Assembly: GCA_000381625.1 (NCBI GenBank)
Contig: KB906767.1
Span: 3,739,304 to 3,803,303, forward strand
DNA: 64,000 nt
Direction of reading: 5' to 3'
Source of the DNA: Bryobacterales bacterium KBS 96
GTDB taxonomy: Bacteria; Acidobacteriota; Terriglobia; Bryobacterales; Bryobacteraceae
Shown here piece after piece: positions 10,128 through 42,794 of this stretch. A program made the translations under genes and the position numbers. The notes under the pieces were generated by a model. It ran no database searches, was not told the DNA's origin, and saw only the letters and a program-made list of their open reading frames with translations. Every line of letters starts with the position of its first letter. Position 1 is the stretch's first letter.

Positions 10128-12863
10128 CTACTCATTGCGCAGCGCGGCCATGGGATCGACACGCGACGCTCCGCGTGCCGGCCACCATGCTGCGAAGAGA
10201 GCCACTCCGAGCATTACGAGAACCGTTCCGGTAATGGTGATGGGATCGTACGGCTTCAGCCCATACAGCATCGCCGCCACGTAGCGTGTCAGGCCGGCCG
10301 CCGCGACCATGCCGATGGCGATGCCGGCGGCCGCCAGCAACAAGCTTTCACGCAGGATCATTCGAAGCACCTGTCCGCTCTGCGCGCCCAGGGCCATGCG
10401 GATGCCGATCTCATTCGTCCGGCGTGCGACGGCATAGGCCATTACGCCATAGATGCCGATGCACGCGAGAACCAGCGCGAGCAGGCCGAGGCCGGAGCTC
10501 AACGCAGCAAATGCGCGCTCGTTCGAAATAGTAGAGTCGATCTGCTCCGTTTGGGTGCGTACGCCGAAAACCGGCAAGTCTTTGTCGACCGAGCGAACGG
10601 CTTCGCGAATCGCTTTCACGATGCCGGATTGGGCGGCTGCCATCTTCACTTCGAATGTCATGGGGCCGAGATTGGGAATTTGGGTGTACGGAAGATAGAA
10701 GGTTGGGGGAACCTGGTCCCGAATATCGCTATATTTTGCATTCCCGCACACGCCGACAATTTTATAATCGGTATCATTTCCGAACAGCTTGCCCAGCGGA
10801 TTCGCGTTCGGGAAAAATTCCCGTGCAAATTCCTGGTTCACGACGGCTACCCGCGGCGAGTTCGACCGGTCGTGTGCATTGAACGACCGGCCGTACAGAA
10901 TCGGAATCTCGAATGTACGGAAAAAAGCCGGATCGACGATGTTCATCCAGGCTGGCTGCTCTTTTTCCAGACGGGACTCGAATCCTTTCGGCGATACGGA
11001 TGTCGTCGATCTATTGTTTGCCACCAGCGCAGCCCTTGATAAGCTCGCCGATTGCACTCCGGGGATGACGGCGATTTTTTCGTGGATGCGCTCAAAAAGG
11101 GTGGCGGCCTGCTCCCCTTTGTAACGCGTATTGGGAGGATCAAGCATGAATAACAACACCCGCGCCGGATTGAAGCCGAGGTCTGTGCTTCGCAGATTTG
11201 CCAGAGTGCGGATAAAGAGACCGGCTCCGACGAGTAGCAACACGGAAAGACACACCTGGAGAATGATGAGGGCTTTGCCTGTTATTAACTTCGGAAGGCT
11301 CATAGTCGCGCGCATACCGTCTTTTAGCGCTGCGTTGATCTCCACGCGCGCCGATTGCCAGGCGGGAGCGAGGCTGAACAAAATACCCGTAAGCAGAGTA
11401 ATGCCAATGGACAGCAGCAACACCGGAAGGTCGAACTGAGCTTCGAGCTGGTTCGGCATCCAGGAATCCACAAGCAAGCGAGGGATCGCGTTGCGCAGTC
11501 CGTCGCCAGCGACGATACCTGCCGCTCCGCCGATTCCCGCGAGCAGCAAACCTTCCGTGAGGAGTTGCCGGGATATGCGCCAACGACCGGCGCCCAGCGC
11601 CAGCCGGACACTGATTTCGCGCTGCCGCGCCGTGGCGCGGGACAGGAGCAGATTCGCTAGGTTCGCGCAGGCAATCAGCAGGACCAAGCCAACAAGAGCC
11701 ATCAGGACAAGCAGAGGCTTTCGAAATTGGCTCCGTAATTCGTCCAAGCCCCTAGACCCCGTTGTCAGTCGCAATCGCGGCTGCGCGCGCTTCACTTTGT
11801 TTGGAAGTGTGTCCCGCACGGTGTGCGTGAGCACGAGGTCCAGGGCAGCCTGCGCTTTTTCCTCGTTAACGCCTGGATCGAGTCGCCCCATGATCAGAAG
11901 CCACCAGTAATCGGGATCGTTTAGAAGACTGCCGTTCTTCGCGGAATCATCGGGAAGGATGAGTGGCTGCATGGAGAGCGGAAAGAAAACGTCGGGATTG
12001 CCGCCGGTCTCCATGCCATGAAAGCTGGGTGGGTTGATGCCGACAATGGTCACGGGAAACTGATTCAACTCGATTTTTGTGCCGATAGCGGCGGGATCTC
12101 TCCCGAACTCCCGAGACCAAAAAGCATCGCTGATGACTGCGACCGCGCCGGCGTCTGGCTTCGCATCGTCCATGGGCATGATGGGTCTACCCACGATCGG
12201 GACGAGTCCGAGACTTTGGTAGTAGTTACCGGACACCAACTCGCCGCTTACAAGCCGCGCCTGCCCGCGGAGCACGCCCGTAACGCCCCAAATCGGCTTA
12301 AACGCAAATACAGACTGAAACGTTGTGTTCTGGCGCTGCATTGCTTTGAATACGGCGTAAGAAAATGACGTGCTGGTCGTGGCGCCCATCGGTGTCGAAC
12401 TGACATCGCCGTCGAGCGAATCCATCACCGTGTGTCGACCCGATACCCATGAGAAAAGCCGAAGCTGTCCCGGATTCTTGACGGGGATTGTCTTCCAGAG
12501 CGCCGTTTCCATCAGCGTGAAAATCGCGGTGTTCGCGCCGATGCCCAGCGCCAGTGAAAGAACGGCAACCGCCGTGAAGCCCGGCGATTGGCGCAGCATG
12601 CGGAAGGCATATCTCAAGTCGGCAGCCAGTTCGTAAATAAGCCGGAGGCCCAGGACATCGCGGCATTCGTCCTTGCGCGCTTCGACCGATCCAAATTCAA
12701 GTTGGGCGCGGCGTTTTGCTTCCTGGGACGCCACTCCGCTCCGGACAAGGTCTTCACAGTAACTTTCGATATGAAATCGAAGCTCACTGTCCATCTCCTG
12801 CTCCACGCTGGGCCGACGCGACACGGATCGCAACCAGGAGCGGAGACGCGCTATGAACTTCAT
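10128..12863 (-). CDS. Acidobacterial duplicated orphan ABC permease (ADOP, MacB/FtsX-like)
   Basis: 911-residue inner-membrane permease. A cytoplasmic N-terminal stretch (residues 1-85, VEQEMDSELRFHIE) precedes the first helix (FTAVAVLSLALGIGANTAIF). A MacB-type periplasmic domain, an FtsX core with LIACANLANLLLSRATARQREI, a second periplasmic domain and a second FtsX core (YGVMAYAVARRTNEIGIRMALG) follow. The duplicated layout without an ATPase gene is the ADOP family, very expanded in Acidobacteria. Its ATG overlaps the padR stop by 4 bp, so the two are coupled; padR-ADOP pairs are a recurring arrangement. Likely a macrolide/lipoprotein-type exporter component, but the cargo is unknown. Confidence 0.92.
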   Translation of the reverse strand: MKFIARLRSWLRSVSRRPSVEQEMDSELRFHIESYCEDLVRSGVASQEAKRRAQLEFGSVEARKDECRDVLGLRLIYELAADLRYAFRMLRQSPGFTAVAVLSLALGIGANTAIFTLMETALWKTIPVKNPGQLRLFSWVSGRHTVMDSLDGDVSSTPMGATTSTSFSYAVFKAMQRQNTTFQSVFAFKPIWGVTGVLRGQARLVSGELVSGNYYQSLGLVPIVGRPIMPMDDAKPDAGAVAVISDAFWSREFGRDPAAIGTKIELNQFPVTIVGINPPSFHGMETGGNPDVFFPLSMQPLILPDDSAKNGSLLNDPDYWWLLIMGRLDPGVNEEKAQAALDLVLTHTVRDTLPNKVKRAQPRLRLTTGSRGLDELRSQFRKPLLVLMALVGLVLLIACANLANLLLSRATARQREISVRLALGAGRWRISRQLLTEGLLLAGIGGAAGIVAGDGLRNAIPRLLVDSWMPNQLEAQFDLPVLLLSIGITLLTGILFSLAPAWQSARVEINAALKDGMRATMSLPKLITGKALIILQVCLSVLLLVGAGLFIRTLANLRSTDLGFNPARVLLFMLDPPNTRYKGEQAATLFERIHEKIAVIPGVQSASLSRAALVANNRSTTSVSPKGFESRLEKEQPAWMNIVDPAFFRTFEIPILYGRSFNAHDRSNSPRVAVVNQEFAREFFPNANPLGKLFGNDTDYKIVGVCGNAKYSDIRDQVPPTFYLPYTQIPNLGPMTFEVKMAAAQSGIVKAIREAVRSVDKDLPVFGVRTQTEQIDSTISNERAFAALSSGLGLLALVLACIGIYGVMAYAVARRTNEIGIRMALGAQSGQVLRMILRESLLLAAAGIAIGMVAAAGLTRYVAAMLYGLKPYDPITITGTVLVMLGVALFAAWWPARGASRVDPMAALRNE

Positions 12864-29333: not shown

Positions 29334-29677
29334 TCCGCCAACTCCAGCGCCCAAATTTGCAGCTCGAGGCCATGAACGACTTCGGACGCGGGCATGCCGC
29401 ATTCAACACAACAAAAGCATTGGACAGACCGAATACTGCGTTCTGCGTTGCAATTAGAGCAATATACGGAAACCGGAACGTCTTCGATTACTAACGGGCA
29501 AGCGGCGAATCTGGTTTGCTCGGACGCAAGTTCGTACGCCGAGAGCAACGCCTCTTTCACCACGCCCGAAAGAAGGCCGAGTTTCAGATGAATCGCCTCT
29601 ATGCCGACATCGCCGCGACGCTGCGCCTCTTCGTCCACCATGTCTAAAATGCTGAGGGCGATAGAAAGTTCATGCAT
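29330..29677 (-). CDS. hypA: Hydrogenase maturation nickel chaperone HypA
   Basis: 115-residue metallochaperone. ATG 29677 is chosen because it yields the invariant MHELSIA start, where His2 and Glu3 help bind nickel. The zinc site is formed by C73xxC76 (CSNC) and C90xxC93 (CVEC). It overlaps hypF upstream by 8 bp and hypB downstream by 4 bp, which implies coupled translation. It hands nickel to the large subunit with HypB. Confidence 0.97.
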   Translation of the reverse strand: MHELSIALSILDMVDEEAQRRGDVGIEAIHLKLGLLSGVVKEALLSAYELASEQTRFAACPLVIEDVPVSVYCSNCNAERSIRSVQCFCCVECGMPASEVVHGLELQIWALELAE

Positions 29678-31940
29678 GGCACTCTCCACGCAAGGCTATT
29701 GCTCCTAGCGCTGCCTGCCCGAGGCTGATCCCGCCATCGTTCGGCGGAACAGCAGAATTGGTCCAGATGCAAATGGGCTTGCCGTTTAATAGCGACTTAA
29801 CGGTTTCGAGCAATAATTCGTTTTGGAAAACGCCGCCGCTCAGAACGACGGTGTCGAGGCCGTTCGCTTCGCAAAGCGTTGTGGCCGCGCAAGAGAGGCT
29901 CTGTGCAATCGTAGTGTGGAACGCACGCGCGATTTCAGTTTTCGAGCGGTCGCGCAGGCAGTCGTCAATCACACCGTCAAGCAACGGTCTGAAGTCCAAC
30001 TCTTCACCGTTGATCGGAAACCGATAAGCGTCGCGATTCGAAGCCCGCTGAGCGATCTGCTCCAGCCACATGGCCGCCTGCCCTTCGAAAGTGATCTCCC
30101 GAGTGAAGCCAAGGAGAGCGGCAACGACGTCGAACAGCCGTCCCATGGAAGTGGTTTCGAAGCTGCGTACGTTCTTTCTGAGAAACTCGACCGACCGGCC
30201 ATACCGGTTGTCGAAATAGAATGGCGGCTCGGTGAAATCCACCGAAGTGTGTAGCTGGCATAAGAACCCTGCGGCGCACTGCACCGGATTGCGGGCGGCC
30301 GCATCGCCCCCAGGCAGACTTGCGCTTCTGAGATGCAAAACCCGCTTAAGCCCGCCGGCCAGGCTGCCGGTGAAGAACTCGCCGCCCCAGATCGTTCCGT
30401 CGTCGCCGAAACCGGTCCCATCGAAACTAACGCCGACCACGCACTTGTCCCATGCCTGCCGTTCGGCAAGCACCGAGGCAATATGCGCGCGGTGATGTTG
30501 GACGGCCAGCGCCCGCGCCGACGGAAGTTCCAGCGCATGACTCGTCGAGGCATATTGAGGGTGAGCATCGTGAACAATCAGCAGATCATCCCAATCCACT
30601 TCATACATGAAAACTAGATCTTGAATTGTGGAGCGGAATGATTCCAGCGATTCGTAATGCTCCAGGTCTCCGATGTGCTGGCTTACGAACGCCTGGTCAT
30701 CGACCACGAGAGTGATCGTGTTTTTCAGATCGGCTCCCACGGCGAGAATCGGGCGCTTCGATGGCAGAATTGTAACCGCGCCTGGCGCATAGCCACGTGA
30801 TCTGCGCAAGATCACCGGTCCGAACGGTCCGGCGCGTGCCACGGAATCGTCCACGCGGCGCGCGATTGGCCGTTCGCCAATCAGAAACGCATCCGCGATG
30901 CCGGCTAGCCGCTCTCGCGCATCGTCGTCTTTGTAGGCGATCGGCTCACTCGACCGGTTGGCGCTGGTCGCAACCAGAATGCCAGGCGCCCCGGCTGCGA
31001 AGAGTAGGTAGTGCAGAGGCGCGTACGGCAGCATCACGCCAAATTCGGCATTTTGTGGCGCCACGCCGGGAAGTGCTACTTTCGCCGGCGCGAGCACGAT
31101 GGGCCGGGCAGTAGACGTGAGCAGCGCTTCGGCTTCTGTCGATAGTTCGACGACGCGATGCGCAGTAGCGAGATCTTTCACCATCAACGCGAACGGCTTT
31201 TCCTTGCGATACTTCCGTTCTCGCAGGGCACGAACCGCTTCCATATTCTGCGCGTCACATGTTAAGTGATATCCTCCGATGCCTTTCACGGCGACGATTC
31301 GCCCTTCGGCGAGTAATCGAATGGTGGCGTTTATGCTGGCTGCATCACGGTTGACGGCCTCACCGTCAAATTCCAAAAAATAACCCGGTCCACATGCTGG
31401 ACACGCGGCCGGTTGAGCGTGAAAGCGCCGATCGATGGGATTGCGATACTGAGTGGCACAGAGAGCGTCCAGCGCCCAGTCCTTCATGGTCGTATTCGAG
31501 CGGTCGTAGGGAAGTCGCTCAACGATCGAATAGCGCGGACCACAATTCGTGCAATTGATGTACGGGTAAAGATATCGTGAATCGGCCGGATTGAAAAGTT
31601 CGCGCAGGCACTCTTCGCAAACGGGCAGATCTGGTGAGATGCGAACAGACGGATGCCCGTTGCGGCGGCTTTCGCGAATCGTAAACTCACGCAGTCCCGA
31701 AACTTCGGACGGCTGAATGTCGATATCCGCAATCCGGGCGGCGGCGGGCGGCTGCAACGTGAGTTCGCGGAGAAAGGCATCCAAATCCGGTTCATCGCCT
31801 TCAATGTGGATGTCGACTCCGCCGCTTTCGTTCAGCACCCATCCAGCGAGCGAATTCGCATGCGCCAGGCGAAATACCAAGGGCCGGAAGCCCACGCCTT
31901 GCACGATGCCGCGTACGTGGATGGATCGAGCTTCTGTCAT
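29670..31940 (-). CDS. hypF: Carbamoyltransferase HypF
   Basis: 756-residue enzyme that makes the CN ligand precursor from carbamoyl phosphate and transfers it to the C-terminal cysteine of HypE. Domains in order: acylphosphatase (residues 1-90, GIVQGVGFRPLVFRLA), two zinc-finger motifs (CEECLRELFNP..CTNCGP and CPACGPGYF), a YrdC-like domain (GGYHLTCDAQNMEAVRALR, KPFALMVKDL) and a Kae1-like domain (AVQHHRAHIASVLAE, VVLSGGVFQNELLLETV). The length is normal. It sits between the glutaredoxin-like gene (4-bp overlap) and hypA. Confidence 0.98.
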   Translation of the reverse strand: MTEARSIHVRGIVQGVGFRPLVFRLAHANSLAGWVLNESGGVDIHIEGDEPDLDAFLRELTLQPPAAARIADIDIQPSEVSGLREFTIRESRRNGHPSVRISPDLPVCEECLRELFNPADSRYLYPYINCTNCGPRYSIVERLPYDRSNTTMKDWALDALCATQYRNPIDRRFHAQPAACPACGPGYFLEFDGEAVNRDAASINATIRLLAEGRIVAVKGIGGYHLTCDAQNMEAVRALRERKYRKEKPFALMVKDLATAHRVVELSTEAEALLTSTARPIVLAPAKVALPGVAPQNAEFGVMLPYAPLHYLLFAAGAPGILVATSANRSSEPIAYKDDDARERLAGIADAFLIGERPIARRVDDSVARAGPFGPVILRRSRGYAPGAVTILPSKRPILAVGADLKNTITLVVDDQAFVSQHIGDLEHYESLESFRSTIQDLVFMYEVDWDDLLIVHDAHPQYASTSHALELPSARALAVQHHRAHIASVLAERQAWDKCVVGVSFDGTGFGDDGTIWGGEFFTGSLAGGLKRVLHLRSASLPGGDAAARNPVQCAAGFLCQLHTSVDFTEPPFYFDNRYGRSVEFLRKNVRSFETTSMGRLFDVVAALLGFTREITFEGQAAMWLEQIAQRASNRDAYRFPINGEELDFRPLLDGVIDDCLRDRSKTEIARAFHTTIAQSLSCAATTLCEANGLDTVVLSGGVFQNELLLETVKSLLNGKPICIWTNSAVPPNDGGISLGQAALGAIALRGECHA

Positions 31941-32182
31941 TCACTCACGCTCCCGCCGACCACACAACCGCGCCCCTGCCAGCCAATCTGCACGGCCTTG
32001 CCGTCCTCCACCAGAACAGGCACGGTGCGCTGTCCACCACTTGCCTCACGCATACGCTTCAAAGCCTCAGCGTCGACCTCAACGTCGTACTCCTCGAAAT
32101 CGCGCCCGTTCCATTCGAGCCATTCGCGCATGTCGCGGGTGTAGGGACAGCTTTTAGTTCCGTAAAGCTCAGTTTTCGCCAT
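31937..32182 (-). CDS. Glutaredoxin/NrdH-like small thiol protein in hydrogenase operon
   Basis: 81-residue single-domain thioredoxin-fold protein. It starts MAKTELYGTKSCPYT, with the redox-type CPYT at residues 12-15, and contains the cis-proline segment RTVPVLVEDG and a GWQGRGC glycine-rich end. The second cysteine of a CxxC pair is a threonine, so it is a monothiol-type protein. It overlaps hypF by 4 bp and the SIS gene by 14 bp. A role in maturation or in redox protection of the hydrogenase is inference from placement. Confidence 0.85.
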   Translation of the reverse strand: MAKTELYGTKSCPYTRDMREWLEWNGRDFEEYDVEVDAEALKRMREASGGQRTVPVLVEDGKAVQIGWQGRGCVVGGSVSE

Positions 32183-33356
32183 CGCTATCGACCTCCAAAA
32201 GCTCGCGGATCGAATGGTAGATGGAGGCCTGCACTTCCTGGATGCGCGGAATGTAATCGGAGCGAACGATCAGCGCGTGGTCGGCCAAGCCTCGCCGCAG
32301 GATTTCGCCGCCATCATAACCGAGCAACGCCACCGTCAACAGTTTTCGTTTTCGCGCCTCCTCCAGAGCGATGATGATGTTGCGCGAACCGCCGCTGGTT
32401 GAAATCCCGATTGCAATGTCGTTCGGGCGCGCCTGCGCAATCAACTGGCGCAAAAAAATGACCTCGGTCCCCACGTCGTTCGCGAGCGCAGTGATATTGG
32501 CCGGTTCCGCGGAGAGAGAAATGGCGGGAATGCGCGCGTAACCGTGCGGCGGCAGCACGCAGTCGATAGCCCAGTCGTTGGCGTCGGTAGCTGAGCCTCC
32601 ATTGCCGAAAAGAATGAGCTTCCCGCCTCGTGCAACGGAGTTCCGAATGGCGGCGGCGGCTGCGACGATCTTTTCCGATTCCTCGTTGGCGACTTGTGCT
32701 CGGAGGTTCGCGTCTTCCGCGACTTTCATTTGAATGGACGCGGCCACCTCTTCAATGATTCCGGCGTTCTCCTGTTTCTGCTGGCCCAGAAATGGATAGA
32801 GAAAGCCGGCCTCGCCGATGTCCTGTCCGAGTTCCCGGTGTTCGAAGAAGACATGCACCGTCTCCCAAAGCGTGTGATACAGAATTTCGATCGCCTCCTG
32901 ATGGAGGAATGGATCGGAGGTAACGGCCTCGACTGAGTACGAGCCCTGCCGCCCCGGCAAGGCGAACGTCATGCATCCCCGCTCTTGAGCCCAATCGAGC
33001 GACGCTTCCACTTCAGCATCGCCTGCCGGTGGTCCGAAGCCCATGACGATGTCCTCGGGCAGCGCGATCGATTCCAGCCATGGGCCGAACAGAGGGGACA
33101 GATCGAGCGCGGGCAGCGCTCGTTTTCCGACAATGACCGGATGAACGAATTCGACGGACACGTGCTGAGCGTCGGTGGCATAGGGCCCCCGTCCAAACGC
33201 CAGCAGTCGGCCGCCTTTGAGAAAGCGGTCCGACATCTCGCGGCAAGCGATAGCGAGACGCTGCGCCTCACGGGAGAAAAGCGCAGTCAGGAGTTCGTTG
33301 CGTTTGAGAAGCGACTCTTCGACTTGCTTTGCGAGTTGGGAGCGGCTGGCCAGCAT
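32169..33356 (-). CDS. Double SIS-domain protein (GmhA/sedoheptulose-7-phosphate isomerase-like)
   Basis: About 395 residues from ATG 33356, which falls one base after the hypE stop. It contains two SIS sugar-phosphate-binding domains. The first (residues ~10-185, GGRLLAFGRGPYATDAQHVS) is divergent. The second (residues ~200-390, GGKLILFGNGGSATDANDWA, then IAIGISTSGGSRNIIIALEE) is clearly GmhA-like. A GmhA-like gene is a known member of actinobacterial-type hydrogenase loci, but its substrate there is not known. The fused tandem form is less usual than single-domain GmhA. Lipopolysaccharide heptose synthesis is unlikely given the operon. Confidence 0.88.
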   Translation of the reverse strand: MLASRSQLAKQVEESLLKRNELLTALFSREAQRLAIACREMSDRFLKGGRLLAFGRGPYATDAQHVSVEFVHPVIVGKRALPALDLSPLFGPWLESIALPEDIVMGFGPPAGDAEVEASLDWAQERGCMTFALPGRQGSYSVEAVTSDPFLHQEAIEILYHTLWETVHVFFEHRELGQDIGEAGFLYPFLGQQKQENAGIIEEVAASIQMKVAEDANLRAQVANEESEKIVAAAAAIRNSVARGGKLILFGNGGSATDANDWAIDCVLPPHGYARIPAISLSAEPANITALANDVGTEVIFLRQLIAQARPNDIAIGISTSGGSRNIIIALEEARKRKLLTVALLGYDGGEILRRGLADHALIVRSDYIPRIQEVQASIYHSIRELLEVDSDGEN

Positions 33357-33357
33357 A

Positions 33358-34395
33358 TCAGCAAATCCGCGGCAAAGGATCGCCGACGAGCATATCGATG
33401 ACGCGCGTGCCTCCATATGATGTGGCCCCGAGGACCGCTCCAGACGGCTGTTCGCGAATTTCGCCGATCAGCGTGGCGGCGTGCCCGCCGGGAGTATTCC
33501 GGAGAGCATCCAGCGCTCTGTCCGCGTATTCCGCATCCAGGACCGCTAGAAACTGTCCTTCGTTCGCGATGTGCAAAGGATCAAGGCCCAGCAGTTCGCA
33601 TGCGCCGCGCACCGTATCCCGGACGGGCACCGCATCCTCAAATAACCACACTCCCAGGCCGCAGTCTCGCGCCAGTTCGTTCAGCGAAGTAGCCACGCCG
33701 CCACGCGTGGGATCGCGCATCCAATGAATGCCCGGGCCTGCCGCCCGCGCCATCGCTTCAATCAGCGGAAGCACGGAACGTGTATCGGAGCAGATCTCGC
33801 CTTCCAGATCCAACTCGCCACGGGCGAGCAGAACCGTGATGCCGTGATCGCCCACCGGGCCGCTAATCAAAACCTTGTCACCCGGCCGTACCGAGGCGGC
33901 CGAAATCGAGATACCAGGGATCACCCGGCCGATTCCGGTAGTCGAGATATACATTCCGTCGGCTTTGCCGTGTTCAACTACCTTCGTATCACCGCCCGAA
34001 ATGACGACTCCGGCGTCGGTTGCGGCCGTGCCCATGGCACGGACCTCAGCCTCCAAAACCTCGGTCGGCAATCCCGCTTCGAGCACATACGTTACGACCA
34101 GCGCTTCCGCTCTTGCGCCTGACACGGCAAGGTCGTTCACGGTCCCGTTCACGGCCAGTTCACCGATGGAGCCACCCGGAAATCGCAGCGGCTTCACAAC
34201 GAAGCTGTCGGTCGTAATGGCGATGCGTGTTCCGTTAATGCTGATGTGCGCCGCGTCCCCTAAAGTCTCGATGCGGTCGCCAAACAGAAGTGGTGCGAAA
34301 AGGCCTTCCACAAGCCGCCGGCTCGCCTTGCCTCCGGCTCCGTGGGCCATTTCAATCTGCGCGTCGCGAAAGCGGATCTTGGGAGCGGCGTCCAT
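33358..34395 (-). CDS. hypE: Hydrogenase expression/formation protein HypE
   Basis: 345-residue AIR-synthase-like enzyme that dehydrates the thiocarbamate on its own C-terminal cysteine to thiocyanate, the CN donor for the Fe centre. The N-terminus has QIEMAHGAGGKASRRLVEGL. The ATP-binding part has MGTAATDAGVVISGGDTKVVE and RDPTRGGVATSLNELA, and the protein ends exactly in PRIC, as the mechanism requires. It begins 11 bp after hypD and ends one base before the SIS gene. Confidence 0.98.
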   Translation of the reverse strand: MDAAPKIRFRDAQIEMAHGAGGKASRRLVEGLFAPLLFGDRIETLGDAAHISINGTRIAITTDSFVVKPLRFPGGSIGELAVNGTVNDLAVSGARAEALVVTYVLEAGLPTEVLEAEVRAMGTAATDAGVVISGGDTKVVEHGKADGMYISTTGIGRVIPGISISAASVRPGDKVLISGPVGDHGITVLLARGELDLEGEICSDTRSVLPLIEAMARAAGPGIHWMRDPTRGGVATSLNELARDCGLGVWLFEDAVPVRDTVRGACELLGLDPLHIANEGQFLAVLDAEYADRALDALRNTPGGHAATLIGEIREQPSGAVLGATSYGGTRVIDMLVGDPLPRIC

Positions 34396-34406
34396 CCTAC
34401 ATCTCG

Positions 34407-35537
34407 TCAGACTGCGGCGCCGATCCGTGTAAGAGTCTCGTGCTTACGGTGCTCGTAGTTGTAGTAAGCAGCGCATGACCCTTCGGACGAAACCATCAGA
34501 GCGCCGACCGGCCGTTCGGGAGTACACTCTTTTCCGAACAATTTACACTGCACCGGCTTCAGCACGCCTTTCAGCACTTCACCGCACTGTGCCGCTTTCG
34601 GATCGGTGACGCGCACGCCCGGAACGGCAAAGCGGTGTTCGGCATCCCAGTCCTTATAGGTATCGCGAATCCGCAAAGCGGACTGGGAGATAAAGCCCAT
34701 GCCGCGCCACTCGAAGTACGACCGCAGCTCGAAGACCTCGGCCATGGCCTTGAGCGCCGCGCGGTTGCCCTCCCACGGCACTACGCGTTTATATTGATTC
34801 TCCACTTTTGCCTCGCCTGCCTTAAGCTGCCGGAGCAGCATTACGACGGCTTGCAATACATCGACGGGCTCAAATCCCGATACGACGATCGGCTTTCCTT
34901 CATTGCGCGCCACCCACTCGTAGGGCCGGCACCCGATAACGGTTGACACATGTCCCGGACCGATGAACGCATCGATTCGCATGTCCGGCGAGTCGAGAAT
35001 TGCGCGTATCCCCGGAATAATGGTCACGTGGTTACAAAATACAGAAAAGTTAGTTACTCCTAGCGCCTTCGCGCGCATAAGCGTCAGGGCGGTGGAGGGC
35101 GCCGTGGTTTCAAAACCAATAGCGAAAAAGAGAACGTGCTTGTCCGGATTCTTCTGCGCCAGTTTTAGCGCATCGGAAGGCGAGTAGACAATTCGCACGT
35201 CCATGCCGCGCGCCTTGTGCTCGAGCGGGCTGCCCTCGCGGCCGGGTACGCGCATCATATCGCCAAATGCCGTGAAGATAACGTTCGGACCTTTCGCTAT
35301 CGACAACCCATCGTCGATGCGGCCCATCGGAAGCACGCAGACCGGACACCCCGGGCCATGCACCAAGTCGATATTCGGCGGCAGAATATCCTTCAAGCCG
35401 AAGCGATAAATGGCGTGAGTATGCCCGCCACACACTTCCATGAACCGGTACTGCCGTCCGAGATCGGCGAGGCGACGAATCTCGTCGGCGGCTTTATGAA
35501 TCACGCCGGCATCCCGGAATTCATCTACGAATTTCAT
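34407..35537 (-). CDS. hypD: Hydrogenase formation protein HypD
   Basis: 376-residue Fe-S protein that, with HypC, holds the iron while CN and CO are attached. ATG 35537 gives the standard MKFVDEFRD start; a longer reading is unlikely. Marks are FMEVCGGHTHAIYRFG, the HGPGCPVCVLP cysteine pair, IGFETTAPSTAL and the C-terminal cysteine cluster including KAAQCGEVLKG and CKLFGKECTPERP. It lies 10 bp after hypC and upstream of hypE. Confidence 0.98.
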   Translation of the reverse strand: MKFVDEFRDAGVIHKAADEIRRLADLGRQYRFMEVCGGHTHAIYRFGLKDILPPNIDLVHGPGCPVCVLPMGRIDDGLSIAKGPNVIFTAFGDMMRVPGREGSPLEHKARGMDVRIVYSPSDALKLAQKNPDKHVLFFAIGFETTAPSTALTLMRAKALGVTNFSVFCNHVTIIPGIRAILDSPDMRIDAFIGPGHVSTVIGCRPYEWVARNEGKPIVVSGFEPVDVLQAVVMLLRQLKAGEAKVENQYKRVVPWEGNRAALKAMAEVFELRSYFEWRGMGFISQSALRIRDTYKDWDAEHRFAVPGVRVTDPKAAQCGEVLKGVLKPVQCKLFGKECTPERPVGALMVSSEGSCAAYYNYEHRKHETLTRIGAAV

Positions 35538-35547
35538 GGAAAAACTC

Positions 35548-35841
35548 CTACGGGCCGGCCTTCCGATCATGATCGCTTAAGCCGTACCCCTTCACCTCTT
35601 GCATCACTGCTTCGTTTTCGCCAAGCATAGTCAGTGTTTGCAATTGATCGAGAGCCTGTTCCTCGCTGATCTTGCTCATTGCAAATCCGACATGAACAAG
35701 CACCCAGTCTCCAAGCTGCAATCTCTCATCCTGTAGCAGCCCAGTGTCTATGTGCCGCCGCACTCCCGCAACCTCCACCAGCGCGCGGCTTTCTTCACCA
35801 GGAAGCAGTTCCACAATCTTGGCCGGTATAGCCAGACACAT
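35548..35841 (-). CDS. hypC: Hydrogenase assembly chaperone HypC
   Basis: 97-residue HypC/HupF chaperone with the required N-terminus MCLAIPAKIVEL; Cys2 is the iron ligand shared with HypD. GDWVLVHVGFAMSKISEEQA is the second family hallmark. The protein is slightly longer than the usual 75-90 residues because of a polar tail (VKGYGLSDHDRKAGP). It is preceded 10 bp upstream by the 35-codon small ORF. Confidence 0.97.
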   Translation of the reverse strand: MCLAIPAKIVELLPGEESRALVEVAGVRRHIDTGLLQDERLQLGDWVLVHVGFAMSKISEEQALDQLQTLTMLGENEAVMQEVKGYGLSDHDRKAGP

Positions 35842-35851
35842 GCTGAACCCC

Positions 35852-35959
35852 TTACATCATTTCCATTTTGATGTAGCGCCTGAAATCTCCGAAATTCATC
35901 GCGACGCCCGCCACCACGGCTGCGGCAATAACGATTCCCGTGATCTTGAGTGCTTTCAT
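35852..35959 (-). CDS. 35-residue membrane microprotein in hydrogenase operon (DUF6893-like)
   Basis: A short ORF of 36 codons whose ATG begins at the base next to the stop of the maturation protease gene and which ends 10 bp before hypC. The product starts MKALKITGIVIAAAVVAGVA, one hydrophobic helix, and ends with a basic amphipathic tail (FGDFRRYIKMEMM). The pattern of a single helix followed by D-x-RRY-x-KM looks like the short DUF6893-type proteins; this match is from memory. The zero-gap position in a tightly packed operon argues that it is translated. Possible role: membrane anchoring or docking for a soluble hydrogenase without a Tat signal or anchor of its own. Confidence 0.72.
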   Translation of the reverse strand: MKALKITGIVIAAAVVAGVAMNFGDFRRYIKMEMM

Positions 35960-36487
35960 TCAGTAGCCCTCCCCGGCTTCTGCATACACAGCAATCTCTC
36001 CCGTACTTTCAAATTCCTGGACTAATGCACGGACAATTTCGACGGCTGGATCGACGGCCGCTTGCACCGCATCGCTGAGCCCCATAACGCCTTCGCTGCC
36101 GCCAAGCACAGCCGGTTGGCATCCGACCAGTAGAATTCGCTTAAACTGAGCACCCATGTTCTTTGCCAGCACGAGAACCTTGGCCGGATCCAAGCTATGC
36201 GAATTGACGCACGCATCTCCAGCGTTTTCAACCAGGCAATTCACATCGGGCTCGATCACATAGAGCATGCCCGGCATGCCGCCTCGGGCAGTCGCGTCCA
36301 CCAGAATTGTGAGATCGTGGCCATCCAGGAAAGCAAAGGCCAAGTCAATCGCGCGTATGCCGAAATCCACAACGCGCACGTTATCCGGCCAGTCGCAAGA
36401 GGCTAGTTTTTGAGCGACCACCACACCGAACGAATCATCGCCGTGAAAGATGTTGCCGATACCGCCGATGAGGACAGACTTGCTCAT
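35960..36487 (-). CDS. Hydrogenase maturation protease
   Basis: 175-residue endopeptidase of the HyaD/HoxM group that removes the C-terminal peptide of the large subunit after nickel insertion. The N-terminus LIGGIGNIFHGDDSFGVVVAQ carries the acidic nickel ligand, and LDGHDLTILVDATARGG and VNSHSLDPAKVL supply the other expected Asp and His. Its target here is probably the large subunit at 39824-41623, which has a 21-residue tail after DPCLPCGVH. It overlaps the 416-residue gene by 4 bp. Confidence 0.95.
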   Translation of the reverse strand: MSKSVLIGGIGNIFHGDDSFGVVVAQKLASCDWPDNVRVVDFGIRAIDLAFAFLDGHDLTILVDATARGGMPGMLYVIEPDVNCLVENAGDACVNSHSLDPAKVLVLAKNMGAQFKRILLVGCQPAVLGGSEGVMGLSDAVQAAVDPAVEIVRALVQEFESTGEIAVYAEAGEGY

Positions 36488-37734
36488 AAATCGATATCGC
36501 AGCCGCTGCTGTCGCTCGGAATCGGCTCGATTTCCGAGCCCGAAAAGAAAAAGCGATGGCCGGCTTGTCGCATCTCGCCCAGATCGCGCCCCGGATCGTC
36601 TTCGATCACGACTGCCACGTGGACGTTATCTTCGTAGTCCTGTTCAATGGCTTCGACGACAGCCGTTCTACCATCGAGCAGCGTATCGAATATATCGGCG
36701 CGCTTGCCGGGCCGAAGCCGGACGCGATCTCCCTTCTTCACGTCGATACCTGAAATGCGGGTGCTCGTGCTTTGTGGAGCTTCCGCCCAAGCGCTCGATG
36801 CGTTCCGGAGGTCGATTCCCAATTGGGACCGCATGCCGCGAATAGCGCCGTGTAATTGCATCAAGTGCTCTGCTGGATTCGCTTCGAGTCTGTCGAGAAT
36901 TTCCTTTGCCCGCTCGTCAGATTGCCGCATTTCCGCCTTTTCGGCGTCGGTCATGGTCAGAATGCGAAGACTGAGGATCTCATCGATTTCGGTTCCATCA
37001 AATAGATCGCCGCTGCTTTCGGGAGCGATTTGCGGGTAATCGGATAGGATGATCGGCGACCCGAGCAACATGTCATGTGCGCCTTCCTCGCCTACGAGAA
37101 CAGGCCACACGCCAACGTTTTCGCAGCCTACCGCAGCTTCGCGGAGCGGATCGGGCGGATCTGTTTGAGACACAAACTCGCCATCTCGCACCGTCAGCAC
37201 CGCGTGTGCAGAGGCGAGGGAGCGCAGCAGCGCTTCGTCGCGAGTGAACTTTTCTAGCGCGGCCGTATTGCGGACGCGCACGCTGATCCGAAAAACCGCA
37301 TCCTGTACGAGTACCGCCCGTATCTCTACTTCGCCTTCTAGGAATTCCTGCCGGTAAGCGCCGCCCCGCCCGGCCGCTGGAAAAGAAAACTCCTCCCGAT
37401 GCGGATTGGAGACGATCGCGTCAAAACTGAGATCGTGAATCGGAACGCTGCCTTCGATCGCCTCTTGCCAGCACTGCACGCCGGCGCCGCGCTCCACGAC
37501 TTGCAGGAACCGCAACGTTACGTTGAGATGCGAATGTGCGCCGCCGAGGGCCAGACATTCCATTTGAAAATACGACCGGTCAGAACCCGTCTGCCCGATC
37601 GCCCAAGCTTCCGGATACAATACGCCGAAATTCCAGCGTTGTCGATTCTTCAAAGCCGACGTCCGGTAAGGATAAAGAATATAGCCTTCGTACAAAACGG
37701 CGCGCGCGATCTTGTCCACCAGTTCTGAGTTCAT
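36484..37734 (-). CDS. Conserved hydrogenase-operon protein of unknown function, 416 residues
   Basis: Not assigned to a characterised family. There is no signal peptide or membrane helix. The N-terminal ~290 residues (DKIARAVLYEGYILYPYR, RQRWNFGVLYPEAWA) form an unknown mostly beta-rich domain. Residues ~330-400 (GDRVRLRPGKRADIFDTLLD, TAVVEAIEQDYEDNVHVAVV) look like a small SH3/KOW-like barrel. I recall proteins of this kind beside group 1h hydrogenases in Actinobacteria. It overlaps the DUF6084 gene and the protease gene by 4 bp each, so it is very likely expressed with them. A maturation or assembly scaffold role is inference. Confidence 0.8.
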   Translation of the reverse strand: MNSELVDKIARAVLYEGYILYPYRTSALKNRQRWNFGVLYPEAWAIGQTGSDRSYFQMECLALGGAHSHLNVTLRFLQVVERGAGVQCWQEAIEGSVPIHDLSFDAIVSNPHREEFSFPAAGRGGAYRQEFLEGEVEIRAVLVQDAVFRISVRVRNTAALEKFTRDEALLRSLASAHAVLTVRDGEFVSQTDPPDPLREAAVGCENVGVWPVLVGEEGAHDMLLGSPIILSDYPQIAPESSGDLFDGTEIDEILSLRILTMTDAEKAEMRQSDERAKEILDRLEANPAEHLMQLHGAIRGMRSQLGIDLRNASSAWAEAPQSTSTRISGIDVKKGDRVRLRPGKRADIFDTLLDGRTAVVEAIEQDYEDNVHVAVVIEDDPGRDLGEMRQAGHRFFFSGSEIEPIPSDSSGCDIDL

Positions 37735-38384
37735 GACACTTCCAGCGGCTGTTCCGCCAACGCCAGCAGGCGTTCAACAGTCTCATCAAAGGTCGCAATG
37801 CCTTCTTTTATCTTGAACCGGTAAAGTTCGTTGAATGCATCACGTCTCAGGCACAGCCACGTCATATTGGGATAGTGGAGATCCATCATCTCTTTCCAAA
37901 CCCGGACCGGCAAACGAAAACGAGCTTCCTTATTCCACGGGACAGGGGCTGCCTGAAACGCCGCTTGCCCCGAATCGTAAAACACGGTGCCGCTGAACAG
38001 AAACGTTAGCGGGACCTCGCCGTCCTCAAGAGCATGGAAATATTTCGCGCTCGCGACGGTGAGATCGAACGTGCAGGGTACGCTAATCGGGTAGACAATG
38101 CTGCCCGTAAAGGAGGGGACGTTCACGGTGGTATTGGCCCACAGCATGGTCCGGAGCGTCTGGGCCCAGCGCTCCGGTTCGCCGAACAGATCCCGGAGTT
38201 GCTCCTGCTCTTGTGGTTTGTAGCGGCGCCGCGGCGCTTCAATCTGAATCTGGCACCGAAGCAGAATTGCGTGGACCGGCTGTTGTTCCGCCTGATTCGT
38301 CAGGCGCAAGTGAAACGCCAGCGCCGGGGTTGCCAGATCGCGCGCGGGTTCGACGTTGACAATCTGAAAGTCGAGATCAGGCAT
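37731..38384 (-). CDS. DUF6084 family hydrogenase-associated protein
   Basis: 217-residue soluble protein of unknown function. The opening LDFQIVNVEPARDLATPALAFHLRL and the segment WAQTLRTMLWANTTVNVPSF followed by SIVYPISVPCTFDLTVA agree with what I recall as DUF6084. No catalytic motif is evident. It overlaps both neighbours (4 and 8 bp) in the hydrogenase operon. I recall the same three-gene block (DUF5947, DUF6084, the 416-residue protein) from other high-affinity hydrogenase loci, which points to a joint function. Confidence 0.8.
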   Translation of the reverse strand: MPDLDFQIVNVEPARDLATPALAFHLRLTNQAEQQPVHAILLRCQIQIEAPRRRYKPQEQEQLRDLFGEPERWAQTLRTMLWANTTVNVPSFTGSIVYPISVPCTFDLTVASAKYFHALEDGEVPLTFLFSGTVFYDSGQAAFQAAPVPWNKEARFRLPVRVWKEMMDLHYPNMTWLCLRRDAFNELYRFKIKEGIATFDETVERLLALAEQPLEVS

Positions 38385-39021
38385 ATGTTTTTATCCGCGC
38401 CGGACGAGAGCGTTGTTTCAGACCGGCAAAATAGGTTGAGATCGCTTCCCAAACCTCACTGCCGCCCGAAAATCCCGACCAGTGTTGCCGGATCAGGCCC
38501 GTCAAGCGGTAGCATTCGTCAATTGGCGCCAGGTAGTATTCGCGCTCGTGCTTGACGCGGTTAACGAGCAATGCCTCTGTATCTGCCTGCATGCTCCCTA
38601 GCACCGGATTGAGATCGACGATCTCTTCCCAGAAATCGGCATCGAGAGCCGATTCCGTTGCCCCTGCAGGACTCGGATATAGCGCTGCAACTTGGCCGGA
38701 CACGCTCGATTTATAGAAGAACACCAGCCCTATGGGAATCATGAGACTGTTCCAGAGTGCATCGTCCAGGCGAAAATCGTCGAGGTATCGAACGTCGCGA
38801 GACACGCGGCGGTATTGTGTCTGGCCGTTGCCGCTGAACAAAATGGCGCACGGGTCGCACGCACAGAGGATACGGCGGCTTTGAGGGTCGATTAAGTGTT
38901 GGTGCTCTTCGGAAAGCCGCGCGGCACAGAGTTCGCATATCTCCACAGGCGGAGGCTTCTGCACGAATTTTCGAAGCGACGCCAGACCGCGCACCGCCGC
39001 GTGTTGGGTTCTTATACTCAT
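38377..39021 (-). CDS. DUF5947 family hydrogenase-associated protein with cysteine cluster
   Basis: About 214 residues from ATG 39021, which overlaps the NifU-like stop by 4 bp; a longer upstream reading would run through that gene and is rejected. The N-terminal part has a metal-binding pattern EICELC (C29, C32) and ILCACDPC (C53, C55, C58), followed by SGNGQTQYRRVSRDVRYLDD. This matches DUF5947 as I recall it. The five cysteines could bind zinc or an Fe-S cluster. Function is unknown, but co-occurrence with group 1h hydrogenases suggests a role in maturation or electron transfer. Confidence 0.8.
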   Translation of the reverse strand: MSIRTQHAAVRGLASLRKFVQKPPPVEICELCAARLSEEHQHLIDPQSRRILCACDPCAILFSGNGQTQYRRVSRDVRYLDDFRLDDALWNSLMIPIGLVFFYKSSVSGQVAALYPSPAGATESALDADFWEEIVDLNPVLGSMQADTEALLVNRVKHEREYYLAPIDECYRLTGLIRQHWSGFSGGSEVWEAISTYFAGLKQRSRPARIKTYA

Positions 39022-39560
39022 AAGCCCGCGCTGGCCATCAGATTCGACAGAGGCACAAAATCCGGCGTAGGAGGATCCCGAAGGCCTTCGACGATCACGT
39101 TCGTGATCTCCGGCGCGGCCTGATAAATTACAGCTTCGATCGACGCCTTTACAGGCGCACCCGACCATACGCGATCGCTATCGAAACGCAATCGTACAAC
39201 ACCCTCCTCAATAGCCAGCAGCGAAACGCCCGTCATGCGAGAACCGAACATTCGCTGCAATTTTTCCACAGCACAGTTCACTCGCGTCTCGAGATCGTCG
39301 GGGTGGAGACCGTGCAGAAGCAGGACACTGCTTACGAGATCGTCAGCGGCTATGCGATCGATAATTGCCTCTCCGGCAGGCCCGGATGCAGCTGCAATCT
39401 CCATCATCCGTTCCAACCCGGCGGCATGGAAATTCAACACCGCTTGTAGCAAATCCACCGTTATGCCACGCAGTTTTGGATCTTCGACAGACTCCGCCCG
39501 GCGAACCAGTTCTTCGATTCTGTCGATCCATTGCTGCGAGCCCACTTCCTCATGCGCCAT
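39018..39560 (-). CDS. NifU-like protein lacking the CxxC motif
   Basis: 180-residue protein. The N-terminal half is helical (QQWIDRIEELVRRAESVEDP, then VDLLQAVLNFHAAGLERMME). The C-terminal ~75 residues follow the NifU/Nfu domain plan (LQRMFGSRMTGVSLLAIEEG, VRLRF, a final PEITNVIVEGL). At the place where Nfu proteins have GxCxxC, this sequence reads DRVWSGAPVKASIEAV, so the cluster-binding cysteines are absent. It therefore cannot bind a [4Fe-4S] cluster in the Nfu way and may act as a scaffold or partner protein. It lies directly after the 63-residue ORF. Confidence 0.82.
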   Translation of the reverse strand: MAHEEVGSQQWIDRIEELVRRAESVEDPKLRGITVDLLQAVLNFHAAGLERMMEIAAASGPAGEAIIDRIAADDLVSSVLLLHGLHPDDLETRVNCAVEKLQRMFGSRMTGVSLLAIEEGVVRLRFDSDRVWSGAPVKASIEAVIYQAAPEITNVIVEGLRDPPTPDFVPLSNLMASAGL

Positions 39561-39823: not shown

Positions 39824-41623
39824 CTAGGAGTGAGCGCCCAGCATCGACGAGTGCTCCTGCCGGAGCACCTTTCCATTCCCCAGGTACATGTGAACTCCGC
39901 AAGGCAGGCAGGGATCGAAGCTTCGCACCGCTCGCATGATATCGATGCCCTTGAAGTTTTCCGGGCCGTTTTCTTCGAACAAAGGCGTGTTCTGAATCGC
40001 GTCCTCGTAGGGCCCCGGCGTGCCGTATATATCACGTGGGCTCGCATTCCATGGAGTTGGCGGATACGGATGGTAGTTCGCGATCTTCCGATCGCGTATG
40101 ACCACGTGATGCGACAGCACTCCGCGCACGGCTTCGTGGAAGCCGCAGCCGATGGCCTCGTCCGGAACCTTGAAGTCCGACCATGTTTGAGTTCGTCCGC
40201 CGCGAACCGCGTTCAGAGCCTTCTCCACAAAATAGAGCGCTGCCGCGGCTGCATAGGCTTGAAAATAGGTGCGCGCCCGGTCGCGTTCAATCGCGTTGCT
40301 CCATTGCGGGATGCTCCATTCGAATTGCGTTTCAGGCAGCAGCGCGGTCTTCGGCAGATTGATCTTGACGCTCTGACCCGTGGCTTGGATATAGCCGATG
40401 TCGACCAAATTGTTTAGCGCCGTCGCCCATAGCCGCGCAATTGGGCCGCCGCCGGTGTCTAGGGCAAGGTGATCACCTGTATTCTTATCGAACCAGCGTG
40501 GCGACATCACCCACGTATACTTTCCCTTGAAATCGCGCTTCTGCGGTTTCGGTGTCGTGGTCTGATTCCACGGATGTCGCTTATCGATGGCGTTGCCGAG
40601 CGGGTCGGTTTTGACGAATGTCTCGCCGGCATTCTCCCAATCGTTGTAGTAGGAACTGCCGAGCAGGATTCGCATGCCCAGATTGATATCAACCAGATCG
40701 TTGGTCACGACCTTGCCGTCAACAATCACACTGGGCGTTACGTACATAGCTCGGCCCCAGTTCGACATGTTTTCGTACTTATAGTCGCAGGCAGCGGGAT
40801 CGTTGAAAGAACCCCAGCAGCCGAGCAGAATCCGGCGCTGTCCTACCCGCTCATATCCCGGCAGCGCTTCATAGAAGAAGTTGAACAGATCATCGTGCAA
40901 CGGGACTGCTTTCTTTACGTACTCGATGTACTTCATCAGGCGGACCAGGTAATCGGTGAAAACCTGAATCGTCGGGACCGTGCCTACGCCGCCCGGGTAG
41001 AGAGTCGACGGATGAACGTGCCGGCCTTCCATGAGGCAAAACATCTCGCGAGTGAGACGGCTCATCTGAAGCGCTTCGCGGTAGTACTCCCCGGTGAACG
41101 GATTCAGCGACCGCATGATTGCCGCGATGGTCTTATACCCATGTTTATCCGCGTTCGGAGCGGGCGTATTTTCCGCCTTGTTCAGAACGCTCGGATTTGT
41201 TTGCTTCACCATCTGCTCGCAGAAATCCACTCCGACCAGGTTGTCCTGATAGAGGTTGTGGTCGAACATGTATTCGGCGGCTTCGCCCAAATTGATGATC
41301 CACTCGCCCAGTTCCGGCGTCTTACACCCGAACGCCATGTTCTGCGCGTAGACAGCGCAGGTCGCGTGATTATCTCCGCAGATACCGCAGATGCGGCTCG
41401 TAATAAAGGGCGCGTCGCGCGGATCTTTGCCCTGCATGAAGATGCTGTATCCGCGAAAAATGGATGATGTGCTGTAGCACTCGGCCACCTCTTGGTTATC
41501 GAAATCGATCTTGGTAAATATGCCGAGGCTGCCGACGATCCGAGTGATCGGATCCCAATTCATTTCGACCAGGTTTCTGCTCTTTCGCTCCGTGCCGGTC
41601 AAAGGTTCCGTCGCTGTCGCCAT
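39824..41623 (-). CDS. hhyL: [NiFe]-hydrogenase large subunit, group 1h (high-affinity type)
   Basis: 599-residue catalytic subunit that binds the NiFe(CN)2CO site and oxidises H2. The N-terminal ligand motif RICGICGDNH is at residues 77-86 (C79, C82). The C-terminal motif is DPCLPCGVH (C572, C575, H578), followed by a 21-residue tail that the maturation protease should remove after His578. The opening VEMNWDPITRIVGSLGIFT and the HPWNQTTTPKPQKRDF style of insertion are those of the actinobacterial-type group 1h enzymes. It follows the small-subunit gene by 15 bp. The enzyme class scavenges trace H2 and is oxygen-tolerant. Confidence 0.95.
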   Translation of the reverse strand: MATATEPLTGTERKSRNLVEMNWDPITRIVGSLGIFTKIDFDNQEVAECYSTSSIFRGYSIFMQGKDPRDAPFITSRICGICGDNHATCAVYAQNMAFGCKTPELGEWIINLGEAAEYMFDHNLYQDNLVGVDFCEQMVKQTNPSVLNKAENTPAPNADKHGYKTIAAIMRSLNPFTGEYYREALQMSRLTREMFCLMEGRHVHPSTLYPGGVGTVPTIQVFTDYLVRLMKYIEYVKKAVPLHDDLFNFFYEALPGYERVGQRRILLGCWGSFNDPAACDYKYENMSNWGRAMYVTPSVIVDGKVVTNDLVDINLGMRILLGSSYYNDWENAGETFVKTDPLGNAIDKRHPWNQTTTPKPQKRDFKGKYTWVMSPRWFDKNTGDHLALDTGGGPIARLWATALNNLVDIGYIQATGQSVKINLPKTALLPETQFEWSIPQWSNAIERDRARTYFQAYAAAAALYFVEKALNAVRGGRTQTWSDFKVPDEAIGCGFHEAVRGVLSHHVVIRDRKIANYHPYPPTPWNASPRDIYGTPGPYEDAIQNTPLFEENGPENFKGIDIMRAVRSFDPCLPCGVHMYLGNGKVLRQEHSSMLGAHS

Positions 41624-41638
41624 TTCATCCCTCTTTCG

Positions 41639-42697
41639 TCAGTAGCTTGTCGGCTGATAGCCGGTGGTTAATTTCGGCCTGCGGTGGCGCCACCGCGGTT
41701 CTTTGTTCCCGCTCGCGTTGGTGATGGATCGGAGACTCCGGATGAGCGATCCGTAGCTGACGACGATCACGGAGGAGAGACTCGCTCCAGGAGGCTGGTC
41801 CATGAAAGGCATGAATTTGTCGGGGAAACCGGGCATCGTACAAGCAATGCAGATGCCTCCCACATTGGGACACCCGCCGATTCCGCGCATCCAACCGCGC
41901 TTCGTCACGTTACAGTTCGCTACTGGACCCCAGCAGCCGATCTTCACCAGGCATTTGGGCGATCCATATTCGTGCGCGAAATCTCCCTGTTCGTAATACC
42001 CGGCGCGATCGCACCCTTCGTGAACCGTTTTGCCGAACAACCAAGTGGGCCGCAACTGTTCATCCAGCGGAATCATCGGAGACAGGCCAGCCGCTTGATA
42101 GAGCAAGTAGAGTACGGTCTCCATCATGTTGTCGGGCTGCACGGGACAGCCGGGAACGTTCACCACCGGCAGACCCGCGGCCGATCGCCACGACTTGCCG
42201 AGATAATTGGCCAGCCCCATACAGCCGGTGGGATTTCCGGCCATCGCATGAATGCCGCCATAAGTAGCGCACGTGCCGGCCGCAATCACACCCCAAGCCT
42301 TCGGCGCCAAGCGGTCAATCCATTCGCAGGTGGTGATCGGTTGCCCGGTATTGGGATTGGTGCCCAACGCGGCCCAGTAACCTTCGCGCTTAATTCCTTC
42401 GTTGGGAATCGAGCCTTCCACCACCAAAACAAACGGATCGAGCTGGCCCTTTTCAGCTTGATAGAAAAATTCCATAAACTCATCGCCGACTTCGGTCGCC
42501 AGCACCGGATTGTGGAGGTGGACTTTGGGCAGTCCGGGGATCGCGCCCATCACGACGTCCTCAATGCTGGGCTGTTCCGCGTTTGTGACCGAGATCGTGT
42601 CTCCATCACAACTCAGACCTGCTGTGATCCAGAGGATGTGAACTTCGGAAACGGCGGACTTGGGTGCGGAGGGCGGCTGGAGCGACTGCGTAGCCAT
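41639..42697 (-). CDS. hhyS: [NiFe]-hydrogenase small subunit, group 1h
   Basis: 352-residue Fe-S subunit. ATG 42697 is preferred because AAGGAGG lies about six bases upstream. There is no Tat signal and no C-terminal anchor, so the enzyme is cytoplasmic. The proximal-cluster motif reads GLSCDGDT (C30, D33). In group 1h enzymes an aspartate replaces the usual cysteine ligand, giving a 3Cys-1Asp cluster linked to oxygen insensitivity. Other ligands are in GTCATYGG, VPGCPVQPDNM and the C-terminal block with KIGCWGPVANC and GGCPNVGGICIACTMPGFPD. It is the first gene of the operon, so the promoter lies in 42698-42986. Confidence 0.95.
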   Translation of the reverse strand: MATQSLQPPSAPKSAVSEVHILWITAGLSCDGDTISVTNAEQPSIEDVVMGAIPGLPKVHLHNPVLATEVGDEFMEFFYQAEKGQLDPFVLVVEGSIPNEGIKREGYWAALGTNPNTGQPITTCEWIDRLAPKAWGVIAAGTCATYGGIHAMAGNPTGCMGLANYLGKSWRSAAGLPVVNVPGCPVQPDNMMETVLYLLYQAAGLSPMIPLDEQLRPTWLFGKTVHEGCDRAGYYEQGDFAHEYGSPKCLVKIGCWGPVANCNVTKRGWMRGIGGCPNVGGICIACTMPGFPDKFMPFMDQPPGASLSSVIVVSYGSLIRSLRSITNASGNKEPRWRHRRPKLTTGYQPTSY

Positions 42698-42794
42698 AAG
42701 GGCCTCCTTTGGGTGCAGCAATCGGTGGACGTGGAGTGCGGGCGTTTGTTACGAAAAAAAGCAGCCCGGTTTGCGTCACCTAACCAAGTACGGC

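Follow-up and report, generated by a model that had tools for sequence, protein, structure and literature searches.

A 35-residue peptide with a single predicted membrane helix, belonging to Pfam family DUF6893 (PF21833), was found to accompany nearly every group 1h [NiFe]-hydrogenase, the type that scavenges hydrogen from air. Of the 80 best hhyL loci, 63 carry the gene in the locus, two carry a weak copy and nine more genomes carry it elsewhere. We consider it the best candidate so far for the unknown part that ties this otherwise soluble enzyme to the cell membrane, although this docking role is inferred. The gene was first noticed in a window of 64,000 nucleotides from Bryobacterales bacterium KBS 96 (contig KB906767.1), and the observation made from the sequence alone was confirmed.

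The gene lies at 35959-35852 on the minus strand (35 codons, ATG to TAA, MKALKITGIVIAAAVVAGVAMNFGDFRRYIKMEMM). Its ATG abuts the TGA of the hydrogenase maturation protease gene (GGGGAGGGCTACTGA|ATG), hypC starts 10 nt after its stop, and a Shine-Dalgarno-like GGGGAGGG (35967-35974, minus strand) lies 7 nt upstream of the ATG inside the end of the protease gene. Among the 372 ORFs of 30-60 aa in the window, only four have a TM-like stretch and only this one has the tail motif. The protein passes the Pfam gathering score of DUF6893 (25.4 vs 24.6 bits; residues 7-35 on profile positions 4-32 of 32), and 45 of the 48 relatives collected here also match the family. A transmembrane helix is predicted for residues 4-21 (35897-35950, minus strand; mean Kyte-Doolittle 2.2), followed by a conserved C-terminal tail of residues 24-35 (35855-35890, minus strand; GDFRRYIKMEMM) which ends in Met. 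AlphaFold2 with 48 relatives predicted one helix from residue 2 to 34 (mean pLDDT 91).

All the surrounding genes lie on the minus strand in the order hhyS (41639-42721; true start probably downstream of the listed TTG), hhyL (39824-41623; group 1h large subunit, 78.8 % identical to that of C. necator AH), a NifU/HhyE-like gene assigned by position and similarity (39018-39560), DUF5947 (38377-39168; start codon uncertain, overlapping the upstream gene), DUF6084 (37731-38384), a gene for a conserved 416-aa protein (36484-37734), the protease of the HycI/HyaD family (35960-36487), the 35-aa gene, hypC (35548-35841), and then hypD, hypE, a double-SIS protein gene and hypF (together 29670-35570). 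The 415-aa double-SIS (GmhA-like) protein (32169-33416) is embedded in the hyp genes and recurs beside hyp genes in many group 1h loci. The 416-aa protein has no Pfam family and is encoded as two genes (about 320 + 100 aa) in many Terriglobia, Chloroflexi and Planctomycetes. Its AlphaFold model (pLDDT 80) has a predicted C-terminal SH3-like domain weakly resembling the cytochrome b6f subunit PetP (TM-score 0.78 on the target; E-value 9e-3).

Substitutions in the gene are those of a protein under purifying selection. Against the two nearest relatives, dN/dS is 0.11 (same genus) and 0.25, with differences by codon position of 18/8/47, and eight Burkholderiales sequences give a pN/pS of 0.24 with 99/35/202. 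When the same alignments were read in the other two frames, the pN/pS ratios were about 1 or above.

When 84,980 species genomes were scanned with HhyL and the 80 best hhyL loci were kept, an iterated profile search found the peptide in 63 of them (E ≤ 0.01). Loci and genomes are denoted here by L and G numbers, respectively. Two more loci have weak versions (L064 and L070), and the nine genomes with a copy elsewhere often carry it on the contig that holds the rest of a broken operon. Of the six left, four are contigs under 5.5 kb and two (L058 and L079) have reduced operons without NifU, DUF5947 and DUF6084. Of 71 measured copies, 66 lie downstream of hhyL (median 4.0 kb). The immediate upstream neighbour is the protease gene in 63 of 72 copies, whereas the downstream neighbour varies (hypA 28, hypC 13, hypF 13 and hhyS 5). 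In verrucomicrobial loci, where the accessory genes precede hhyS, the gene moves with the protease, and in mycobacteria it directly precedes the protease.

Genome samples of four phyla were also used to compare the presence of DUF6893 and hhyL. In Acidobacteriota, 11 of 13 hhyL-positive and none of 244 hhyL-negative genomes have it (P 1e-17). Of the two missing, G550 has a weak copy in place and G393 has hhyL near a contig end, and copies unlinked to the operon still occur only in hhyL-positive Acidobacteriota. In Chloroflexota, 17 of 18 have it and none of 143 without hhyL, apart from one match inside a 549-aa ORF, and the four genomes with only 38-45 %-identical relatives of HhyL lack it. 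In Pseudomonadota the counts over the cut-off were 1 of 1 and 0 of 248, and in Actinomycetota 17 of 25 and 5 of 222. Inspection of these five showed an operon remnant (L119, 7284-8397) where hhyL and most of hhyS are deleted but DUF6893 and the protease remain, a fragmented operon (L121, whose genome also has a copy on a short contig and a divergent copy without hydrogenase neighbours), two operons with protease and hyp genes of a related hydrogenase (L123 and L124), and one spurious match in a 795-aa ORF. Matches in G299, G729 and G807 lie inside ORFs of 549-795 aa and were taken as spurious. The first genome of each sample was chosen because it has the gene, but leaving it out does not change the result.

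Not all hydrogenase loci carry a recognisable copy. Two of the eight Actinomycetota lacking a profile hit (G213 and G256) belong to a clade where synteny reveals a divergent form (PGLIREIRIWRM plus a short extension), also found in S. cattleyicolor (L094), which is outside the sample. A clade with 64 %-identical HhyL (L116-L118, in actinobacterial genomes G209, G188 and G185) keeps NifU, DUF5947 and DUF6084, and the protease where the contig reaches it, but has no recognisable DUF6893; L116 has an unrelated small membrane ORF at 11122-11352 after hypB. When the other subunits of loci lacking DUF6893 were examined for a compensating membrane helix, none convincing was found. In L112 (5300-6145) the 416-aa gene is truncated and the protease and DUF6893 are both missing. 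Variant forms were also observed. In L132, L133, L136, L138 and L131 (Terriglobales and other Acidobacteriota), a second, longer form (65-85 aa) with an extra segment and a half-repeated motif sits between the protease and hypC or hypA, while a short form is present elsewhere in the same genome. A subfamily ending in RYQQLRDM/RYKQLRDM (L122, 2134-2253, and L127, 6042-6143) lies away from the hydrogenase genes in genomes that have the hydrogenase operon.

The membrane helix is variable and interchangeable (median Kyte-Doolittle 2.28), but the C-terminal end is nearly invariant ([PK][DE]-I/L-x-R-Y-L/I-R/K-I-x-x-M-COOH). Counting from the C-terminus in 48 sequences, Asp/Glu is found at -11 in 47, Arg at -8 in 47 (Lys in one), Tyr at -7 in 48, Lys/Arg at -5 in 46, Ile/Met/Leu at -4 in 48 and Met at -1 in 48. 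As the profile search favours sequences with this tail, the exact invariance is an upper estimate, and divergent forms with RE for RY and with C-terminal extensions exist. The consensus contains no Cys or His. The sequence-only reading had described an amphipathic D..RRY..KM tail. However, the tail of the window protein is D-F-R-R-Y-I-K-M, and its helical hydrophobic moment (0.38) equals that of shuffled tails (0.37 ± 0.18), so that amphipathicity is not supported statistically.

The interpretation offered by the sequence-only reading, that a tiny membrane partner could dock a hydrogenase without Tat signal or membrane anchor, was partly supported. The refutation tests it had named were run and passed, as homologues sit at the same operon position across phyla, the start, helix and tail are conserved, and the substitutions show purifying selection. 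HhyL and HhyS have no TM helix and no twin-arginine motif is visible at their N-termini. Its remark that the gene is easily lost also holds, since the gene is absent from the gene tables of all five annotated plasmid records examined, including the well-studied C. necator pHG1 (these PLSDB tables are incomplete). It did not recognise the peptide as a member of a named Pfam family.

DUF6893 has a Pfam number but no function, and a full-text search of 5.39 million open papers, which did not cover subscription papers and preprints, found no mention of it. Literature searches for a small ORF in the hhy operon or for M. smegmatis MSMEG_2714-2716 returned nothing relevant. No PHROGs match was found, NCBIfam gave only a sub-threshold chance match, and no PDB chain matches the profile significantly (best E-value 0.12); the only close solved structure of the hydrogenase, 5AA5, is C. 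necator AH. The family itself was already known, and the new elements are its link to group 1h hydrogenase and the definition of its conserved tail.

It is nearly certain that the peptide is a real, single-pass small membrane protein and a near-universal part of the group 1h hydrogenase system. Its most likely role, for which our confidence is only slightly better than even, is that of a docking peptide. In this view the variable helix would sit in the cytoplasmic membrane with the basic C-terminal end on the cytoplasmic side, and the nearly invariant C-terminal dodecapeptide, ending in a free Met carboxylate, would bind a partner of the soluble complex (HhySL or its accessory proteins) and so hold the hydrogenase at the membrane where it feeds the respiratory chain. 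The existence of the gene, the selection on it, its association with the hydrogenase and its anatomy are established by our analysis, while the topology, the partner, the docking and any effect on affinity are inferred. The topology rests on charge only: the median net charge of the tail is +2, which fits a cytoplasmic C-terminus, but the N-terminal side is also slightly positive.

Docking is plausible because none of the other conserved operon proteins (HhyS, HhyL, NifU-like, DUF5947, DUF6084, the 416-aa protein and the protease) has a convincing membrane helix. In addition, the 1h enzyme of M. fumariolicum is membrane-associated although both subunits lack anchors and signals; the authors suggest an unknown partner, and the purified enzyme has a lower affinity (PMC7174314). 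Only two bands (65 and 40 kDa) were described for it, and we infer that a 4-kDa peptide could have gone unseen on such a gel. Mycobacterial operons carry no cytochrome b anchor (PMC6883350). A membrane peptide with a fixed tail, inferred to be cytoplasmic, would be the simplest candidate for the partner suggested in M. fumariolicum, if the gene is present there, even though no physical interaction is known. We also considered that C. necator might lack the gene and so have a soluble enzyme, but this was rejected as the gene is present, unannotated, between the protease and hypF in C. necator H16 (L089, residues ending KDIRRYIRIRSM). The enzyme of this strain is reported as cytoplasmic (PMC7174314), so any anchoring there must be weak or lost on lysis. 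The 64 %-identity clade without recognisable DUF6893 and the lack of detectable amphipathicity in the tail also speak against docking.

The main rival, which we regard as less likely, is a maturation role. The peptide would recruit or regulate the C-terminal protease (or HypC/HypD) and bring precursor HhyL to the membrane during assembly, without being part of the finished enzyme. The constant linkage to the protease would equally suit this role, as would the joint movement of the two genes in verrucomicrobial operons and their joint absence from L112. In L081 (14813-15610) the protease and DUF6893 share one uninterrupted frame, which may be a natural fusion or an internal start; it was the only such case found in a search for fusions that would reveal the partner. 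On the other hand, proteases of this family (HyaD/HybD/HycI) act in the cytoplasm and are not known to have a membrane partner in other NiFe groups, the 64 %-identity clade keeps the protease without DUF6893, and unlinked copies exist away from the protease (L135 and L137).

Less likely still, the peptide may be an oligomer scaffold or electron-transfer adaptor that organises HhySL with HhyE/NifU or with a respiratory complex (cytochrome bcc-aa3 or bd) as a supernumerary small subunit, rather than simply anchoring it. Small single-helix subunits are common in respiratory complexes, the tail is far more conserved than the helix, and HucM, a small protein of the group 2a enzyme, is critical for oligomerisation and links that enzyme to the membrane (PMC10017518). 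However, the peptide has no cofactor ligands and no fixed respiratory gene neighbour, since unlinked copies sit among unrelated genes. A translational coupler or leader peptide acting only between the protease and hypC, suggested by the spacing of zero upstream and 10 nt downstream, is very unlikely given the amino acid-level purifying selection, the C-terminal motif fixed across phyla, the different downstream genes and the unlinked copies.

Compared with other systems, HucM of the M. smegmatis hydrogenase Huc would work alike, as a small accessory protein linking a soluble atmospheric-H2 hydrogenase to the membrane (PMC10017518). However, HucM is 188 aa and forms a tetrameric coiled-coil stalk, features not found in the 35-aa single-helix peptide, and no homology is claimed. 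The cytochrome b anchors of group 1 uptake hydrogenases (HyaC/HoxZ type) may share the role of tying the hydrogenase to the membrane, but they are multi-pass haem proteins serving Tat-exported enzymes, while the window protein has one helix and no His or Cys and serves a cytoplasmic enzyme. Supernumerary small membrane proteins of the CydX type are also about 35 aa with one helix and are encoded next to a respiratory enzyme; no sequence relation to them is shown, and here the conserved part is the C-terminal tail and not the helix.

Group 1h hydrogenases are main players in the soil sink for atmospheric H2. How the cytoplasmic enzyme reaches the membrane is stated as unknown in the literature (PMC7174314, PMC6883350), and membrane association is linked to its high affinity. 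Our results name a specific, conserved and easily deleted 35-codon gene and a 12-residue motif in organisms with genetics, which makes the question directly testable, and provide a gene to include in any heterologous expression construct. They also give a function context to a Pfam DUF. It is possible, though tentative, that DUF6893 is the missing membrane subunit of the group 1h hydrogenases, a microprotein whose free C-terminus (-RYxRxxxM-COOH) would plug into the cytoplasmic enzyme and recruit it to the respiratory chain, setting its high affinity for atmospheric H2.
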